From contig CACZVR010000001.1 in NCBI GenBank assembly GCA_902784675.1, positions 153,719 to 217,718 of the forward strand: a stretch of DNA of 64,000 nt, given 5' to 3'. This DNA is from an uncultured Bacteroidales bacterium (GTDB lineage: Bacteria > Bacteroidota > Bacteroidia > Bacteroidales > Muribaculaceae). The notes below the pieces were generated by a model. It was not told the origin of the DNA, did not search any database, and was given only the letters and a program-made list of their open reading frames with translations. The position numbers and the translations under genes were made by a program. Of the stretch, positions 28,573 to 34,860 are shown in pieces. Position 1 is the first letter of the stretch. Every line of letters begins with the position of its first letter.

Positions 28573-29748
28573 TTACTTAATAAGTTCTTCGACAATGCGA
28601 GAGGCATAATCGCGTGCTGCTTTGTTGCTGGCCACAAGGTCTTCATAATGCGGACGCCCGATGTGAGGAGCCTGCTCCATTGTCTTGTCAATGATGGTAT
28701 AAATGTCGGTAAAACGGATTTTGTCTTGAAGGAATGCCGCTACGGCGATTTCGTTAGCAGCATTCATCACACAAGGAGCGGTGCCACCGGCGCGGGCTGC
28801 AGCATAAGCGGTATTCAACAAGGGGAATTTGTCGAAGTCGGGACGCTCAAACGTCAGTGTCGCAAAATCCTCAATGGACATCTTGCGGCAGTCACTCGCC
28901 AGGCGGCGGTCGGGCAAGCCCAGGGCGTAGCGGATGGGAAGGTGCATGTCGGGCAAACCCAGTTGCGCCTTGACCGAACCGTCCTTGAAGGCGACCATCG
29001 AGTGGACGATGCTCTGCGGATGCACCAGAATCTCAATATCTCCAGGCTCCACGCCGAACAGCCACCGCGCCTCGATCATCTCAAACCCCTTGTTCATCAT
29101 CGTCGCCGAGTCGATAGTGATTTTAGCGCCCATCGACCAGTTGGGATGCTTGAGGGCATCGGCAGCCGTGACACGCGACAGTTCCTCTTTGGGCATGGTG
29201 CGGAATGGTCCGCCCGAAGCTGTCAGCAGCAGTTTGTCAACATCCTCGTGACGTTCACCCACCAGGCATTGGTAGAAGGCGCCATGCTCGCTGTCAACGG
29301 GGTAGAGCACACTGTCGGAATTGCGCAGCAGGCTCTCGATGAGTTCGCCGGCGACGACTAGGGTCTCTTTGTTTGCCAGAGCGATGCGTTTGCCGGCGCC
29401 AATAGCGGCGATTGTCGATTCCAGGCCACTATAGCCCACCATCGCTGTCACCACTGTGTCAATCTCGGGCATGGTCACCGCTTGAGCGATAGCAGCGCTA
29501 CCGGTAGCCACGACGATTTCGGTACCTTCTAAAGCGTCACGCACATACTCATAGTACTGTTCATCGGCGATGATAACCATGTGCGGTCGCATGAGACGGG
29601 CCTGAGCAATCAGCAAGTCAGCACTGCTGCGTGCCACCAGGAGCCAAGCCTGGAACAGGTCGGGGTACTCGGCAATGATATCGAGTGTCTGACGCCCGAT
29701 TGAGCCCGTGCTGCCCAAAACAGCGATATTTCGTCTTGTTTCTCTCAT
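28573..29748 (-). CDS. dxr: 1-deoxy-D-xylulose 5-phosphate reductoisomerase
   Basis: This 391-residue enzyme makes 2-C-methyl-D-erythritol 4-phosphate, the first committed step of the MEP isoprenoid pathway, with NADPH and a divalent metal. The N-terminal Rossmann motif is VLGSTGSIGRQTLD. Metal and substrate residues lie in PVDSEHGAFYQCL and in TASGGPFR. The conserved WSMGAKITIDSATMMNKG and HPQSIVHSMV segments are present. Length and motifs are normal. It heads an operon with rseP. Confidence 0.97.
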   Translation of the reverse strand: MRETRRNIAVLGSTGSIGRQTLDIIAEYPDLFQAWLLVARSSADLLIAQARLMRPHMVIIADEQYYEYVRDALEGTEIVVATGSAAIAQAVTMPEIDTVVTAMVGYSGLESTIAAIGAGKRIALANKETLVVAGELIESLLRNSDSVLYPVDSEHGAFYQCLVGERHEDVDKLLLTASGGPFRTMPKEELSRVTAADALKHPNWSMGAKITIDSATMMNKGFEMIEARWLFGVEPGDIEILVHPQSIVHSMVAFKDGSVKAQLGLPDMHLPIRYALGLPDRRLASDCRKMSIEDFATLTFERPDFDKFPLLNTAYAAARAGGTAPCVMNAANEIAVAAFLQDKIRFTDIYTIIDKTMEQAPHIGRPHYEDLVASNKAARDYASRIVEELIK

Positions 29749-29767
29749 ACTTTTTTGTTACAAACTG

Positions 29768-29798
29768 CGAAGATACAGCATTTTTCCTTCACGGCAAG
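29768..29798 (-). promoter_or_regulatory. Probable promoter of dxr-rseP
   Basis: Minus-strand TATCTTCG (29768-29775) differs from TAnnTTTG at one base, with CTTG 19 bases upstream (29795-29798). The predicted leader is about 12-15 bases. Confidence 0.45.
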
Positions 29799-29862
29799 CA
29801 ACGAAAAACATATTTTTAGAGTTCTACGGCCATTGTTTTCGTTTTTTCACTCTTTTCACCTT

Positions 29863-29956
29863 TTCCACCCTTTCCACTATATACGTGACTTTCCACAAAT
29901 TTCCACCCCGCAGCGGAAACACACGCACATGTGAACGGGGTGGAAAAAGTGGAAAA
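29863..29956 (+). repeat. Left direct repeat with GTGGAAA/TTTCCAC boxes
   Basis: This 94-base unit holds four TTTCCAC boxes, then a loop containing CACACGCACA, then GGGGTGGAAAAAGTGGAAAA. The inner arms TTTCCACCCCG and CGGGGTGGAAA are exact complements, 25 bases apart. It pairs with the copy at 31419-31514. Confidence 0.9.
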
Positions 29957-29976
29957 TGGAAGAAGATGCCCCATCT

Positions 29977-30009
29977 GGGCGATAGTCATCCATCTCGTCA
30001 CTATCGCCC
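29977..30009. other. Hairpin beside the left direct repeat
   Basis: A 10-bp perfect stem (29977-29986 with 30000-30009) has a 13-base loop. No T-tract follows on the plus strand, so it is not a standard terminator. Its loop resembles the loop of the hairpin at 31552-31588, although the stems differ. Confidence 0.7.
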
Positions 30010-30074
30010 GCAACTGGAGTACTTTGTTGGTTGTATCATTTAAATGAATCTTACGATAACATACCATTTTTCAC

Positions 30075-30123
30075 TTTTCCACTGTTTTCACAAATATATA
30101 TTAAAAGTGAAAAAGGTGGAAAA
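30075..30123. repeat. Third dyad of TTTCCAC-type boxes downstream of the ATPase gene
   Basis: Two 17-base arms (30075-30091 and 30107-30123) are inverted with 15 of 17 matches around an AT-only spacer of 15 bases. The arms are built of TTTTCCAC and TTTTCAC boxes. The dyad lies 27 bases past the ATPase stop codon. It could terminate transcription or bind the ATPase or a partner protein. Confidence 0.7.
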
Positions 30124-30149
30124 GTGGAAAACGGCTGAATGAGGTGTGA

Positions 30150-31208
30150 CTAAAGCGTTTGGAGGGAATAGTGTTTGCCATCGCTGCTCGACAGCACCCC
30201 TTGTTCCTTGGCGCTGTTTAACAATTCATAGGCTCTGGTTTTTCCAACTCCTAGCTTAGTCTGTATCAGGTTGAGCACATCGCTGGTTCGCAGAGGCATG
30301 GAGAAACCCTCATAGCATATTGCCATCTTTTCATGCAACTTGGCCTTGTCCTCCTGTACCTTCAGTTCCAATTGCAGCTGGCGGTCAATCGCAGCGTCCA
30401 TGGGCACGGCATTGTCATCGAGCTTGAAGCAGATATCACCGCAGTTGCGGTGGCGGCTGAAGCTGTGCTTCACCTCAAACACGGTATCGTGCTTCTCGAC
30501 GTTGAACACGTCGCTGCACTTCTGATAAAGCAAGGTGCCCAGGTGGCCCTTCATGTTCTTGTCCATGCTGCTCTTGTTCTGATGCATGACCACGACGATG
30601 CAGCATTTGTGCTCGTTGGCCATCGCCGCCAGCTTGTTGACAATGTCCTGGCTCTCGATCACGTCGTTGTAATTGTAGATCAGGTCGGCAATGCCGTCGA
30701 TGACGACCAAGTCAGGACGCTCGTGCGAGACGGCATAGCTGATGACATCATAACGGGAGGGTTCCGAGTCACTGCCAATGCCTGCCGGCAGCAAGCATGC
30801 CACCCTGTAGTCGTCGTGACGGCTCAGGGGCGACATCGCATCGATGGTCTTTTGGACACGCTGGGTGTCGCTGTCCGACTGCTCGGTGTCAAAGAACAGT
30901 GCCCGCCCGGTCTCCTTCAGGCTGCGGCAATTCACGAAATGGTCGCTACCCATGAAGATGGCAGTCAAGATGTCGCAGAAGAAGGTCTTGCCGTTCTTCC
31001 ACTTGGCGCTCACGGCCACCAGATTGCCCTTGGGCATCGTGGGCACACCACCAATCTCGATGAGGTAGTCTGGTTCGGGATACTCAACGTTGCGTTCGAT
31101 GAAGTAAGGCTTCATGAACTCGTTGTACTCTTCGTTGAGTATCTCTTCGGGAGAGAGTTCTGCTTGACGACGAATCTCGTCAAGGATTTCAGTTGTGTTA
31201 CTACTCAT
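30150..31208 (-). CDS. RepA-like AAA (RecA-fold) ATPase with C-terminal winged helix
   Basis: This 352-residue protein has a P-loop AKWKNGKTFF (about residue 68), the form seen in RepA/AAA_25 plasmid helicases. Walker B is DLVVIDGIADLI (about residue 168), and sensor-like VVVMHQNKSS follows. The last 60 residues look like a winged helix (GVGKTRAYELLNSAKEQGVL). Such ATPases act as replicative helicases or regulators of plasmids, phages and integrated elements, usually beside a primase gene; here no primase or integrase is adjacent. A good promoter lies about 90 bases upstream and long direct repeats flank the gene. Base composition by eye is like the neighbours. The ATPase call is solid; a replication role is inferred. 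Confidence 0.78.
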   Translation of the reverse strand: MSSNTTEILDEIRRQAELSPEEILNEEYNEFMKPYFIERNVEYPEPDYLIEIGGVPTMPKGNLVAVSAKWKNGKTFFCDILTAIFMGSDHFVNCRSLKETGRALFFDTEQSDSDTQRVQKTIDAMSPLSRHDDYRVACLLPAGIGSDSEPSRYDVISYAVSHERPDLVVIDGIADLIYNYNDVIESQDIVNKLAAMANEHKCCIVVVMHQNKSSMDKNMKGHLGTLLYQKCSDVFNVEKHDTVFEVKHSFSRHRNCGDICFKLDDNAVPMDAAIDRQLQLELKVQEDKAKLHEKMAICYEGFSMPLRTSDVLNLIQTKLGVGKTRAYELLNSAKEQGVLSSSDGKHYSLQTL

Positions 31209-31298
31209 GGTACATAAAAGAATTTAATGGTTAAAAAAACGAATACCTGGCGAGCCGCTTATCATCAGCTTGGGCCAATGACTGGAGACTTGCCGCTG

Positions 31299-31331
31299 CA
31301 AAGTTACAACCTCTATACCTCGAAATCCAAA
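31299..31331 (-). promoter_or_regulatory. Promoter of the RepA-like ATPase gene
   Basis: On the minus strand TAACTTTG (31299-31306) is preceded by TTTG (31328-31331) at 21 bases, matching the Bacteroidota consensus. The predicted leader is about 85 bases. Confidence 0.7.
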
Positions 31332-31418
31332 TTTTTTCTCAAAATAATTTGCAAAATACCAATTTTTACACGATTATTCACCGAAAATAGTTGGTTATTT
31401 TACTATTTTTTCCACTCT

Positions 31419-31514
31419 TTCCACCCATTCCACTATATACGCGTCTTTCCACCAATTTTCCATCCCGCAGTGGAAAACACACGCACAGGTGAACGGGGTG
31501 GAAAAGGTGGAAAA
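31419..31514 (+). repeat. Right direct repeat with GTGGAAA/TTTCCAC boxes
   Basis: This is the second copy of the unit at 29863-29956, with about ten differences including two one-base gaps. The core CACTATATACG, CCCGCAG, CACACGCACA and GTGAACGGGGTGGAAAA segments are shared. It lies between the tricorn gene end and the ATPase promoter. Confidence 0.9.
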
Positions 31515-31551
31515 CACCGACGAATCAGGTCGTGGAGACCCATCAACAGCA

Positions 31552-31588
31552 GCATCCGCACACCCATCGGTCACAGGTATGCGGATGC
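31552..31588. other. Hairpin beside the right direct repeat
   Basis: A 9-bp perfect stem (31552-31560 with 31580-31588) has a 19-base loop that starts CACCCATCGGTCAC. The left hairpin loop region reads CATCCATCTCGTCAC, so the loops resemble each other while the stems do not. Confidence 0.65.
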
Positions 31589-31591
31589 CGC

Positions 31592-31620
31592 ACTAATCTC
31601 TAATCTCTAATCGCTAATCA
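31592..31620. repeat. Short CTAATCT tandem words
   Basis: Three to four imperfect copies of CTAATCT/CTAATCG stand just after the tricorn stop codon (minus-strand sense). They resemble the low-complexity block at 27075-27116. Confidence 0.6.
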
Positions 31621-31626
31621 GCGAGC

Positions 31627-34600
31627 TTAATTCACACCCAGGTCTTTGAGGGTGCGCGGTGCGGGAGTCTTGGGCATGGGCTTGCGGTCCTTGAGCTGCT
31701 CAAGAATGACCTCAATGGCCTTGTCCAGCTGCTGGTCGATGCCGTTGAACTCCATGACGGGATCATTGTCAACGATGATGTCGGGATCCACACCGTGATT
31801 CTCGACAATCCAGTTGCCACGGGTGTCGTAGTTGGTGAAGAAGGGCACGCGGATGTCGGTGCCGTCCATGTAGGGCAGCGAGCCGCTGATGCCCACGATA
31901 CCACCCCACGAGCGAGTACCGATGACGGGACCAATCTTGTTCTCCTTGAAACTCCAGGGGAACAAATCACCATCACTGGCGCTGTACTTGTTCACCAGCA
32001 GCACCTTGGGACCGACGAGGGTGCGCTCGGGCGTTGTGCCGTTGTGGTTGCTGCCACGGTACATGGTCAAGCGATAAGGCTGACGAAGCAGTCGCTCAAT
32101 CACCATCGGGGAGATATTGCCACCACCGTTGCCACGGTCATCGATGATGAGAGCCTCTTTGTCGGTTTGAGCAAAAAAGTAACGCGAGAACTCACGCAAG
32201 CCCTCAGGTCCCATGTCGGGAATGTAGACATAGCCCACGCGACCACCGGTCTTCTCGCTCACATAGTCGATATTGTGCTGCACCCACTCATAGTGGTAGA
32301 GCGGGTATTCGTCCTGGATGGGTTTCACGACAACCTTGCGGTCACCGTTAATGGTCAATTCTGTCATTACGTCGGCCTTGTCGCGCAACAAGGCATAGAA
32401 GTTGGTCACACCCTGGGCTGACACACCGTCAACGGCAGTGATGACATCACCCACCTTGATGTTCATGCCCGGCTCGAGTAACGGGGAACGCAATGATTCG
32501 CGATCTGGAGCGCCTTTTAAAATCTTGGTGATTTTATAACCATTAGTAACCTGTTCCAATTCGGCGCCGAGCATACCGATGTGGTGCTCGTCGGCCTGAA
32601 TGTGGTCGCCACCGTCAACATAGGCGTGACCCACAGCCAGCTCACCAATCATGCCGCCAATGACATAGGTCAAATCAAGACGGTTCTTGACATAAGGCAG
32701 CAGGGCGGCATACTTGTCGTGCATTGCTTGCCAGTCCACGCCATGCATGTTCTCGAGATAGAAGCCATCGCGATAGGCGCGCCAAGCCTCGTTGAAAATC
32801 TGATTCCACTCCTGCTCATAGTTCACTGTGGCAATCATGTCATCAAGATTGACTGCCTCGCTGAGGTCGGCCTTGCGAGGGGTGAGGGGAGCGATATAGA
32901 GCTCTTCTCCTTTGAGGAAGAGTGCAGTCTTCTGGTCGGCCGAAGGCATCATATAGGCCCTGTCGGCAACCACCTCGTCCTTTTGCTCTTCGAAATCAAA
33001 GACACGCACACTGCCACGGCCACTGTACCACAAGTGGCTTCCGTCGCAAACGAAATTGCCGTAACTGCCAGTGCCTACGGGCACCTTGACGATGCGGTCG
33101 GCTATGCCGTCAATATCGATGCGAACAGCGTTCTCATCAGCCTGGGCTTTGCCCTTACCGCCCTTCTTACTCTTGGGCTCATCCTTCGGAGCATCCTTGG
33201 GGTTGTCGCCGCCAGCGTTCACTTTGTCATCTTTGGGGAGGAATGGCGAGGGGGTGTCCTTGGAGAGCATCACCAGATAGATGCCTTCCATATCGCGGTA
33301 GGCAAAGTTCCACTCGATGCTGCTGTAGACGGGATTGAAATCGCGAGCCGAGGCAAAGATGAGATACTTGCCGTCGCTGCTGAATTCTGGTGCGTTACTC
33401 TCATACCAGCGGTCGGTCACAGGATATTCCTTGCCCTCGGCAATGTTATAGAGATAAACCACGCTGTACTCATTGGTTCCCATGCGGGAATAGGTGAGCC
33501 ATTTGCCATCGGGTGAGAAACTGGGCGTGGGAATTTCGCCCATCTCGTCCTGCAGCAGCGTTTGCTTGGTCTGGGTCTTGACATTGACAAGCACCATTCG
33601 GTTCTTGCGGTCGGTATAGACAATCTTGCTGCCGTCGGGGCTCCACACCAGGTCGCGGATATAGGTATCGTTATCCTTGGTCAACTGGATGGCCTTATCG
33701 CTGTCCACTGGGCGCATCCAAATCTCGGTCTCGCCGGTCTGGTCGCTGATGTAGGCGATGTTCTTGCCGTCGGGGCTCCAAGCCGCGTCACGCTCGTGAA
33801 CGCCAGGAGTGTGGGTGATATTACGGGTCACGCCATGCTTGGCGGGAACATCGAACACTTCGCCACGGGCGCTGATAGCGATGCGGCTGCCGTCAGGGGC
33901 CAAGCTGCCACCGCGCAGATCGTCCTTCACCTTGCGCTGCTCCTCGCGTGCGAAGTTGTTCTCGCTGTTAAGATAGACTGTGATTTTCTCACTGTGTTTG
34001 GTAGCGGGGTCAAGCACATAGAGGTAACCGCCGTTTTCAAAGACGATCTTGCCACCGCCACAGTTGGCAAACTTCACATCATATTCGGTGAAGTCGGTCA
34101 CCTTTTGCGTCGTTGCCGTGCGGGTGTTATAGACAAAGATGTTCATGCGGTTGTCGCGGTCACTCATGAAGTAGATTTCGTCTCCAATCCACATCGGGTC
34201 AATGTCCTGGGCAATATTGTTCGTGATGTTGGTCACGGTCTTGGCCTGCGTATCATAAATCCAGATGTCGTCGGCCATACCGCCCTTATAATATTTCCAA
34301 GTGCGGAACTCGCGGAAGACACGGTTATAGGCCATCTTGGTGCCGTCGGCATTGTAAGAGCAGAAACCGCCTTCGGGCAACGGCAGTTGCCGAGACATGC
34401 CTCCGTCAATGGGAGCACACCACAGTTTACCGTCAAAACTGTCACTGATGCGGTTGCGGTAAATCACACCCTTGCCATCAGGAGTCCAGGTCATGGTGAT
34501 GTTGTTGGGACCCATGCGGTCGCCCCAATCATCACGGGGGTTGCTGGCCGTGAACGTGATGCGCTTGGGCTCTCCGCCCTGAGCAGGCATGACATACACC

Positions 34601-34860
34601 TCGGTGTTGCCGTCATACTGACCAGTGAAAGCGATGGTGCGTCCATCGGGGCTGAAACGAGCAAAGGCTTCATAACCCTTGTGGGAGGTTAATTTGCGCG
34701 CCGTGCCACCGGTAATGGGCACAGTGTAGATGTCACCAGCATAGCTGAATGCCACTTCGCTACCGTTAGTGCCGGGGAAGCGCAGCAAGCGCCCCTCATC
34801 GGCTTGGCTGGTCATCGCGACTGTGGCGATAGCCGCCAGTAGAAAGAATTTTGTCTTCAT
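31627..34860 (-). CDS. Tricorn-type S41 protease, exported
   Basis: This 1077-residue protease has a signal peptide (MKTKFFLLAAIATVAMTSQA). Its N-terminal half is two beta-propellers of PD40/TolB-like repeats (for example FSPDGRTIAFTG and WSPDGSKIVYTD). A tricorn C1 domain, a PDZ domain (around EPGMNIKVGDVITAVDG) and the S41 catalytic domain follow. The nucleophile serine is expected in NKYSASDGDLFPW, with IIDDRGNGGGN and RSWGGIVGISG near the active site. The order propeller, propeller, PDZ, S41 and the length match tricorn homologues, which trim peptides. Export suggests periplasmic peptide breakdown. A Lys/Asp-rich insert sits near residue 555. Confidence 0.92.
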   Translation of the reverse strand: MKTKFFLLAAIATVAMTSQADEGRLLRFPGTNGSEVAFSYAGDIYTVPITGGTARKLTSHKGYEAFARFSPDGRTIAFTGQYDGNTEVYVMPAQGGEPKRITFTASNPRDDWGDRMGPNNITMTWTPDGKGVIYRNRISDSFDGKLWCAPIDGGMSRQLPLPEGGFCSYNADGTKMAYNRVFREFRTWKYYKGGMADDIWIYDTQAKTVTNITNNIAQDIDPMWIGDEIYFMSDRDNRMNIFVYNTRTATTQKVTDFTEYDVKFANCGGGKIVFENGGYLYVLDPATKHSEKITVYLNSENNFAREEQRKVKDDLRGGSLAPDGSRIAISARGEVFDVPAKHGVTRNITHTPGVHERDAAWSPDGKNIAYISDQTGETEIWMRPVDSDKAIQLTKDNDTYIRDLVWSPDGSKIVYTDRKNRMVLVNVKTQTKQTLLQDEMGEIPTPSFSPDGKWLTYSRMGTNEYSVVYLYNIAEGKEYPVTDRWYESNAPEFSSDGKYLIFASARDFNPVYSSIEWNFAYRDMEGIYLVMLSKDTPSPFLPKDDKVNAGGDNPKDAPKDEPKSKKGGKGKAQADENAVRIDIDGIADRIVKVPVGTGSYGNFVCDGSHLWYSGRGSVRVFDFEEQKDEVVADRAYMMPSADQKTALFLKGEELYIAPLTPRKADLSEAVNLDDMIATVNYEQEWNQIFNEAWRAYRDGFYLENMHGVDWQAMHDKYAALLPYVKNRLDLTYVIGGMIGELAVGHAYVDGGDHIQADEHHIGMLGAELEQVTNGYKITKILKGAPDRESLRSPLLEPGMNIKVGDVITAVDGVSAQGVTNFYALLRDKADVMTELTINGDRKVVVKPIQDEYPLYHYEWVQHNIDYVSEKTGGRVGYVYIPDMGPEGLREFSRYFFAQTDKEALIIDDRGNGGGNISPMVIERLLRQPYRLTMYRGSNHNGTTPERTLVGPKVLLVNKYSASDGDLFPWSFKENKIGPVIGTRSWGGIVGISGSLPYMDGTDIRVPFFTNYDTRGNWIVENHGVDPDIIVDNDPVMEFNGIDQQLDKAIEVILEQLKDRKPMPKTPAPRTLKDLGVN

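Follow-up and report, generated by a model that had tools for sequence, protein, structure and literature searches.

A RepA-like ATPase gene between two box-array repeats and its putatively mobile, replicon-like relatives in one Bacteroidales genus

Phage satellites of the P4 and PICI type combine helicase-like and primase-like genes with an integrase and with packaging or interference functions, and they were taken as one comparison set for the locus described here. Replication of RSF1010 involves iteron binding by RepC, unwinding by RepA, and priming by RepB' at ssiA and ssiB, and that of pRN1 requires a stem-loop located after the rep gene, whose product carries a winged helix at its C-terminus (both according to excerpts of PMC4234260). 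According to an excerpt of PMC2817692, RAYT genes typically coevolve with their repeats. The BrickBuilt MITE of P. gingivalis was considered as the identity of the present repeat and was set aside as different, its unit being a 23-nt tandem one in the excerpted account (PMC4596501). No description of the element family reported below was found in the open-licence literature, as judged on titles and abstract openings.

All positions refer to the window, i.e. the whole 64,000-nt stretch of DNA that was analyzed (G000:C1:153719-217718, where G000 is the genome carrying it). The dxr/tricorn-like interval is occupied by a single gene located between two direct repeats of ca. 105 bp (Table 1). This arrangement had been claimed in an earlier note made from the sequence, and it was confirmed; both copies are real, but each had been started ca. 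10 nt too far inside. The copies are 88% identical over the aligned columns, with a start-to-start distance of 1,556 to 1,558 nt. When one copy was used as a DNA query against its own genome, the other was returned (85%, E 4.8e-31). When the two ends of one copy (its first 60 nt and its last 45 nt) were matched without gaps to the other interval, identities of 77% and 87% were obtained, compared to 52% and 60% for the best of 200 shuffles. Exact GTGGAAA/TTTCCAC boxes number 15 in the interval between dxr and the tricorn-like gene (29749-31626), whereas 200 dinucleotide shuffles gave 0.36 on average. The earlier description of the boxes therefore held, although a third array, the hairpin, had been missed; its 28-nt arms (30064-30091 and 30107-30134) are 86% complementary, and its DNA fold z is -7.5. 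A reading of the boxes as DnaA boxes, one of which TTTTCCACA presumably resembles, was rejected, since the boxes of homologous units are different. Among the longer ORFs between dxr and the tricorn-like gene, the ATPase is the only one, leaving no primase; as had been noted earlier, no integrase or transposase was present either, and no RAYT or packaging gene was recognized among the ORFs of the unit. Runs with a seven-base period (CTAATCT, TTTAGGC, and AGTTTAG types) were observed at 31590-31620 and in intergenic regions of several relatives.

Table 1. Positions of the unit's features and of the bordering genes in the window
Feature	Position	Strand	Basis or remark
RepA-like AAA_25 ATPase, C-terminal domain read as winged helix	30150..31208	-	352 aa, intact; Pfam AAA_25, AlphaFold, fold match, dN/dS
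dxr-side ~105-bp repeat	29853..29956	.	boxes, ACGTG, CACACG, inverted boxes
Gene-upstream ~105-bp repeat	31408..31514	.	direct orientation relative to dxr-side copy
Hairpin, inverted box arrays around AT-rich center, directly 3' of gene	30064..30134	-	arm complementarity; DNA fold z
Apparent decayed counterpart of other families' stem-loop	30032..30064	-	by eye, 5 mismatches to motif; same place after hairpin
Promoter-like TAACTTTG of ATPase gene	31299..31306	-	sequence comparison
dxr, host gene bordering unit	28573..29748	-	ORF, synteny; name taken from first reading
Tricorn-like gene bordering unit	31627..34860	-	ORF, synteny; putative name, taken from first reading

The gene product matched Pfam AAA_25 (4.4e-12, above the curated cut-off), and its AlphaFold model had a pLDDT of 87. 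In the structure comparison, RadA ranked first, and RSF1010 RepA (1nlf/1g8y) ranked 2 and 6, with TM values of 0.69-0.71 by target length and 0.50-0.51 by query. The modeled ATPase has an RSF1010-RepA/RadA-type fold, which bears out the RepA-like assignment of the earlier note, and its C-terminal helix-helix-strand part reads as a putative winged helix. The segments AKWKNGKT and DGIADL, which we take to be the Walker A and B motifs, are invariant among 26 ATPase sequences. The best match in the viral library was an uncharacterized Olleya phage protein, followed by phage AAA, primase-polymerase, and replicative helicase proteins; phages and plasmids yielded ATPases at 24-30% identity only, and PADLOC returned no match for the six proteins scanned.

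Group A was defined as the window gene together with the six genes that share 75% identity or more with it (in G035, G114, G032, G107, G093, and G084). Over the 21 pairs of this group, dN/dS was 0.15-0.29, which indicates a maintained gene, and all seven frames are intact. The promoter-like TAACTTTG recurs in six group-A sequences and is taken to represent the Bacteroidetes -7 promoter consensus. Two ATPase copies (L036, at G000:C66:6653-7594, and L099) have an apparently shortened or frameshifted C-terminal domain, and in L036 the box sequence begins directly after the ATPase stop codon.

Homologues of the ATPase were found in 21 of the 101 genomes of the genus (E ≤ 1e-40) and, with a cut-off of E 1e-30, not in any of 294 further genomes from the order; distant homologues (28-33%, E 1e-12 to 1e-18) occurred in 3 of the 24 other genomes of the order that were searched. 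The named homologue records are Bacteroidales MAGs, several of them from ruminants, labeled Prevotellaceae, Muribaculaceae, or Bacteroidales. Six of the seven group-A genes are located at the tricorn-dxr place (G000, G035, G114, G107, G084, and G093). For G093 this assignment was made from the left flank only (tricorn is at left, and the contig stops at right), and in G084 an extra ORF is situated between tricorn and the repeat. Two repeats with the same orientation relative to the gene were present in all six of the fully readable group-A units (G000, G035, G114, G107, G084, and G032).

Thirty dxr loci were compared. A site in a relative bearing a single repeat, which the earlier note had proposed to look for, was found in G077 (L068), where one full repeat is present at the same place without the gene. 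A partial repeat, with no ATPase within the stretch read, was seen in G032, G068, G073, and G024; in G018, G019, G006, G080, G026, G065, and G020, tricorn adjoins dxr and no repeat was seen. The G032 unit, comprising the gene with its repeats, sits elsewhere, between g37166 and dnaE. For that place, 29 relatives were fetched out of the 86 genomes with a g37166 match: dnaE came next without a unit in 17 (including G107, the sister species of G032), the unit was present in G032, and other or longer neighbors were found in 11. G035, which is outside the 29, has a full unit of the TerL type (described below) at the g37166-dnaE place. At tricorn, G021 has an unlike unit (ATPase 62% identical, other boxes, ORF2 plus DUF6371) on a contig that stops before dxr. 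Both regions host unlike units, which fits a hot spot or tolerated sites. The genomes were also searched with the ~105-bp unit under strict filters, 36 candidates being scored in each genome; matches were strong (E < 1e-15) in seven of them, i.e. six with group A and G077, and weaker in twelve more. One solo repeat site with homologous flanks is common to four species (G000:C27, G114:C11, G084:C19, and G032:C40). Repeat copies were 85% alike within a locus and 82% alike across loci, a slight difference.

In each of the 15 pairs formed by six species, the ATPase showed less divergence than dxr+rseP, which counts against plain vertical descent, and the two trees differ in the placing of G035. 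The earlier note had set against its own proposal the case in which all relatives keep the gene and both repeats with ordinary vertical divergence. That case is approached by the six group-A genes at tricorn-dxr and by a sliding comparison in which ATPase and tricorn divergence were alike in four of five pairs, but G077 and G032 depart from it. In the G035-G107 pair, the ATPase core stood at 0.04-0.07 (a tract of ca. 600 nt inside the gene) against 0.13-0.20 for tricorn. Clean horizontal transfer of the whole unit was considered and rejected: the trees disagree on G035, yet the low G035-G107 divergence is limited to part of the ATPase gene; the values for G035-G032, a pair outside the sliding comparison, were 0.085 against 0.252. 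From these comparisons, the history is read as mainly vertical descent with local exchange, plus probable loss (G077) and relocation (G032); the single-repeat and relocated states lend partial support to mobility of the unit. If the unit were instead a purely vertical relic, the inactive remnant of an old element at dxr-tricorn, then its decayed stem-loop, its missing primase, and its occurrence at the same locus in most close relatives would be explained. Such a relic would hardly be expected to show the above dN/dS range, seven intact frames, and the relocation in G032, and we regard this explanation as improbable.

Box arrays adjoin most other homologues as well, contrary to the second condition under which the earlier note would have given up its proposal, namely that the repeat is never found with other AAA_25 genes. 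The box differs by family, e.g. GGATGAAC in the D group and TAGACGAATAGATGAA, AATGAAAT, AATGAGAA, and ACGGAAGA in other homologues. The usual order is boxes, AT-rich core, and inverted boxes, followed by a stem-loop and then by a further array with ACGTG; this block is upstream of the ATPase gene in L083, L086, L088, and G000:C66. The stem-loop, with the consensus TGTGTCATCGCAAGTTTTGACACA, lies no more than 1.2 kb from 21 of 28 ATPase genes when two mismatches are allowed (the count covered loci other than the window itself), and a reversed control gave 0/28. The seven remaining loci are six of group A (no match at two mismatches) and L100. The window's own counterpart was not recovered as the best match in the motif comparison of loci. 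The exact pattern has 36 sites in 20/101 genomes of the genus (a control pattern had 2) and none in the 294 other genomes of the order; it is absent from IMG/VR. In Rfam, no match reached its family's gathering score. The stem-loop is present in 16 of the 21 ATPase-bearing genomes vs. 4 of the 80 others (Fisher 5e-11). An ATPase adjoins 10 of the 36 sites and is not found at the other 26; 23 of 25 ATPase-less sites (G106:C44 being left out) are in an array hairpin, and G090:C8 and G000:C47 have no array context, all as judged by eye. By the same means, many solo sites were seen to have boxes for which the genome concerned, itself incomplete, yielded no matching ATPase. For covariation, 26 stem-loop sequences (18 distinct) were used. 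Both-side changes occurred in 8 of 12 pairs, a level reached by 2/500 shuffles, and the covariation score was higher than in any of the 500 shuffles or any slid version; the pair types were unremarkable in number (112/500 shuffles), and the three outermost pairs are unpaired in at least half of the rows.

Eight D-group ATPase loci adjoin a full-length RAYT-like gene, L096 adjoins a fragment of one, and L083 adjoins another RAYT-like gene; NF047646 matched both of the RAYT-like genes scanned, below its cut-off. REP/BIME-type repeats made by a RAYT transposase, with the ATPase as a bystander, would account for this adjacency, for an array hairpin that follows a RAYT gene at L188, and for repeat-gene coevolution, which is typical of RAYTs (excerpt of PMC2817692). 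All eight D-group RAYT loci with an ATPase have the stem-loop and 6-8 D-type boxes, compared to 0/11 and 0-2 boxes at D-type RAYT loci without an ATPase, and no RAYT-like ORF was recognized by eye beside group-A genes. A RAYT/REP origin of the boxes was consequently rejected, and the bystander explanation is considered very improbable.

Several further observations were made around these loci. The L188 hairpin (G032:C64), with boxes of the AAATGAACGAAA type, stands right after its RAYT gene and has neither stem-loop nor ATPase. The RAYT-like gene (L092 3645-4787 and relatives, ca. 381 aa) has matches in 78/101 genomes of the genus, often several per genome. Apparent type I restriction genes, named by eye, surround D-group loci (e.g. 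L092, L094, and L102). The D-group ATPases of L094 and L102 look identical in the alignment and come from two MAG bins of one sample (SRR8387716 bins 91 and 1), reflecting either recent transfer or a binning error. A second dispersed element, with ends like TGTGTCATAATT...GAATTATGACACA and an AT-rich interior, is intergenic in L051, L066, L077, L089, and L256 and looks like an independent MITE.

Among 12 representatives, box similarity tracked the C-terminal domain (Mantel r 0.31, p 0.008) and did not track the ATPase domain (r -0.05). The result is fragile, with p values of 0.08-0.11 upon removal of L083, L086, or L090 and of 0.16 when 4-mers are used. The clearest case, on sequence comparison a natural domain swap, is L085/L090: seven 40-residue blocks are 88-100% identical, the last ca. 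75 residues are ca. 25% identical, and the boxes differ. L092/L096 resembles this pair, with distances of 0.19 for the ATPase domain and 0.75 for the C-terminal one. Enzyme and repeat seem to change together, and the most likely binder of the GTGGAAA boxes is the winged helix at the C-terminus.

Fuller units were found in the wider family. At six loci a TerL-like gene is beside the ATPase; that of L084 matched phrog_2 (4e-17) and T4 gp17 (1.3e-8), and the six TerL copies 65-100% identical to it all adjoin this ATPase. Seven ATPase loci carry one aligned protein, and both members scanned matched DUF6371 (4.7e-35 and 8.6e-37); the DUF6371 model (pLDDT 81) matched the primase domains of DnaG and T7 gp4 (E 1.8e-4). 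By eye, a box array is present at the TerL-side end in 6/6 TerL-type units, and a matching inverted array at the opposite end is clear only in L037 and L042 (2/6). The ~105-bp repeat combines motifs found at both ends of the fuller units. No Pfam match to an integrase or transposase was obtained in 19 ORFs of or beside these units. Restriction-type genes adjoin some units (EcoRII plus a C5 methylase at L037 4677-7167; a GmrSD/HNH protein at L035 13026-14806). TerL was also tried as a marker of the element and rejected, a separate TerL-like gene of ca. 40% identity being present in most of the 95/101 genomes with a match. This separate gene (ca. 620 aa) occurs about once in most genomes of the genus, e.g. 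at G000:C9:1104-2978 (L245) and in G033:C6 (L247 9692-11572), and is perhaps a domesticated packaging gene or part of a gene transfer agent.

In another explanation, the box arrays form the termini of a transposon or MITE family that is mobilized by the TerL-like protein or by a trans-acting enzyme, the ATPase being an accessory factor. This would be consistent with the paired arrays of L037 and L042, with a ~105-bp unit that looks like two joined ends, with the solo units, and with the relocation in G032. It fares poorly against the absence of transposase matches in the window unit and in the 19 ORFs, the resemblance of the TerL-like protein to phage packaging proteins, and the restriction of strong repeat matches to seven genomes, with few copies each; nor is a target-site duplication readable, the flanks being too diverged. 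We consider it an improbable explanation. Somewhat less improbable, though still unlikely, is a host-domesticated regulatory or chromosome-organizing system in which the ATPase binds scattered arrays as terminators, promoters, or anchors and movement is incidental. The arrays that were read lie between genes, one repeat borders directly on the region upstream of dxr, the ATPase gene is under purifying selection, and one solo site is shared by four species; against this stand the patchy presence (21/101 genomes), the terminase-like and primase-like genes of the fuller relatives, and the occupation of the same intergenic regions by unlike units.

The explanation that we favor, at slightly better than an even chance, is that the unit belongs to a family of replicon-like mobile elements confined to the genus, of which it is a reduced, chromosomal representative, mostly vertically inherited, under selection, and encoding a helicase that reads its own boxes. 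The earlier note had proposed a minimal or relic replicon, or a satellite; the RepA-like fold and the arrays beside homologues agree with this, but the terminase-like and primase-like genes of the fuller relatives suggest reduction of the unit rather than a minimal design. Direct support for the favored explanation is provided by the anatomy of the locus, the fold prediction, the linkage of box and gene, selection, and the single-repeat and relocated states in relatives. The points against it are the lack of integrase or transposase matches, the location of group A mostly at one locus, the 7/28 loci without the stem-loop, the fragile Mantel result, the clear paired end arrays in only 2/6 TerL-type units, the many solo sites whose boxes have no matching ATPase in their (incomplete) genome, the unreadable target-site duplications, and the ATPase-free hairpin of L188. 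A broader proposal, which we hold as possible but doubtful, is that of a new class of integrase-less mobile replicons whose helicase, having a DNA-reading domain that can be exchanged, co-diversifies with its hypervariable 8-9-nt iterons, the iterons serving as both origin and element ends and gene-less origin copies being shed across the genomes of one genus.

The RepA fold, the box-linked C-terminal domain, the arrays at an AT-rich core, the stem-loop, and the primase-like gene make iteron-guided helicase loading with stem-loop priming the most likely mechanism; box binding, origin activity, stem-loop priming, and excision or another mode of movement are what we infer for it. The C-terminal winged helix of the RepA-type ATPase would bind the GTGGAAA boxes, and the hairpin after the gene, with its inverted boxes and AT-rich core, would most likely be an origin-like loading site. 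In other families, unwinding would expose the conserved stem-loop behind the hairpin, and in the fuller units the adjacent TOPRIM-type primase could use the exposed stem-loop, as in RSF1010. Recombination between the ~105-bp direct repeats would delete the gene and leave one copy. Because its primase gene is absent and its stem-loop apparently decayed, the window unit, if still replicating, would rely on functions in trans; possible roles for it are action in trans, copy control, or a function for the host, and it may also be waiting for a helper. The interest of the finding lies in the apparent joint change of enzyme and repeat. Provided that the box reading holds, a single genus offers about a dozen natural combinations of an altered winged-helix domain with an altered DNA site, and these pairs, which include a clean domain swap, would make a recognition code and replicon incompatibility directly testable. 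It would also add an origin-like family of intergenic elements to this rumen group and explain the stray repeats there.

Among the known systems, RSF1010/IncQ shares with the family the RepA-type fold, iteron-like arrays, an AT-rich core, an adjacent stem-loop, and, in the fuller relatives, a primase-like gene. It differs in that the present unit is chromosomal, the box reader and the helicase seem to be fused, the primase-like protein resembles DnaG/T7, and any replication is putative; the window unit, moreover, has neither a primase nor an intact stem-loop. Phage satellites of the P4 and PICI type are similar in their helicase-like and primase-like genes and in the packaging-type gene of the fuller relatives, whereas no integrase, capsid, or interference gene was recognized in the units. 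RAYT/REP systems likewise have palindromic repeats between genes, which diversify along with the gene at their side, as well as solo copies; in contrast, the window unit has no tyrosine transposase, its copies are far fewer, and its repeats are arrays of 8-9-nt boxes. Replicons of the pRN1 type, with a primase-polymerase, an SF3 helicase, and no iterons, belong to different protein families, but they have in common with the present family a large stem-loop directly after the gene, a C-terminal winged helix, and a stem-loop whose structure is kept while its sequence varies.
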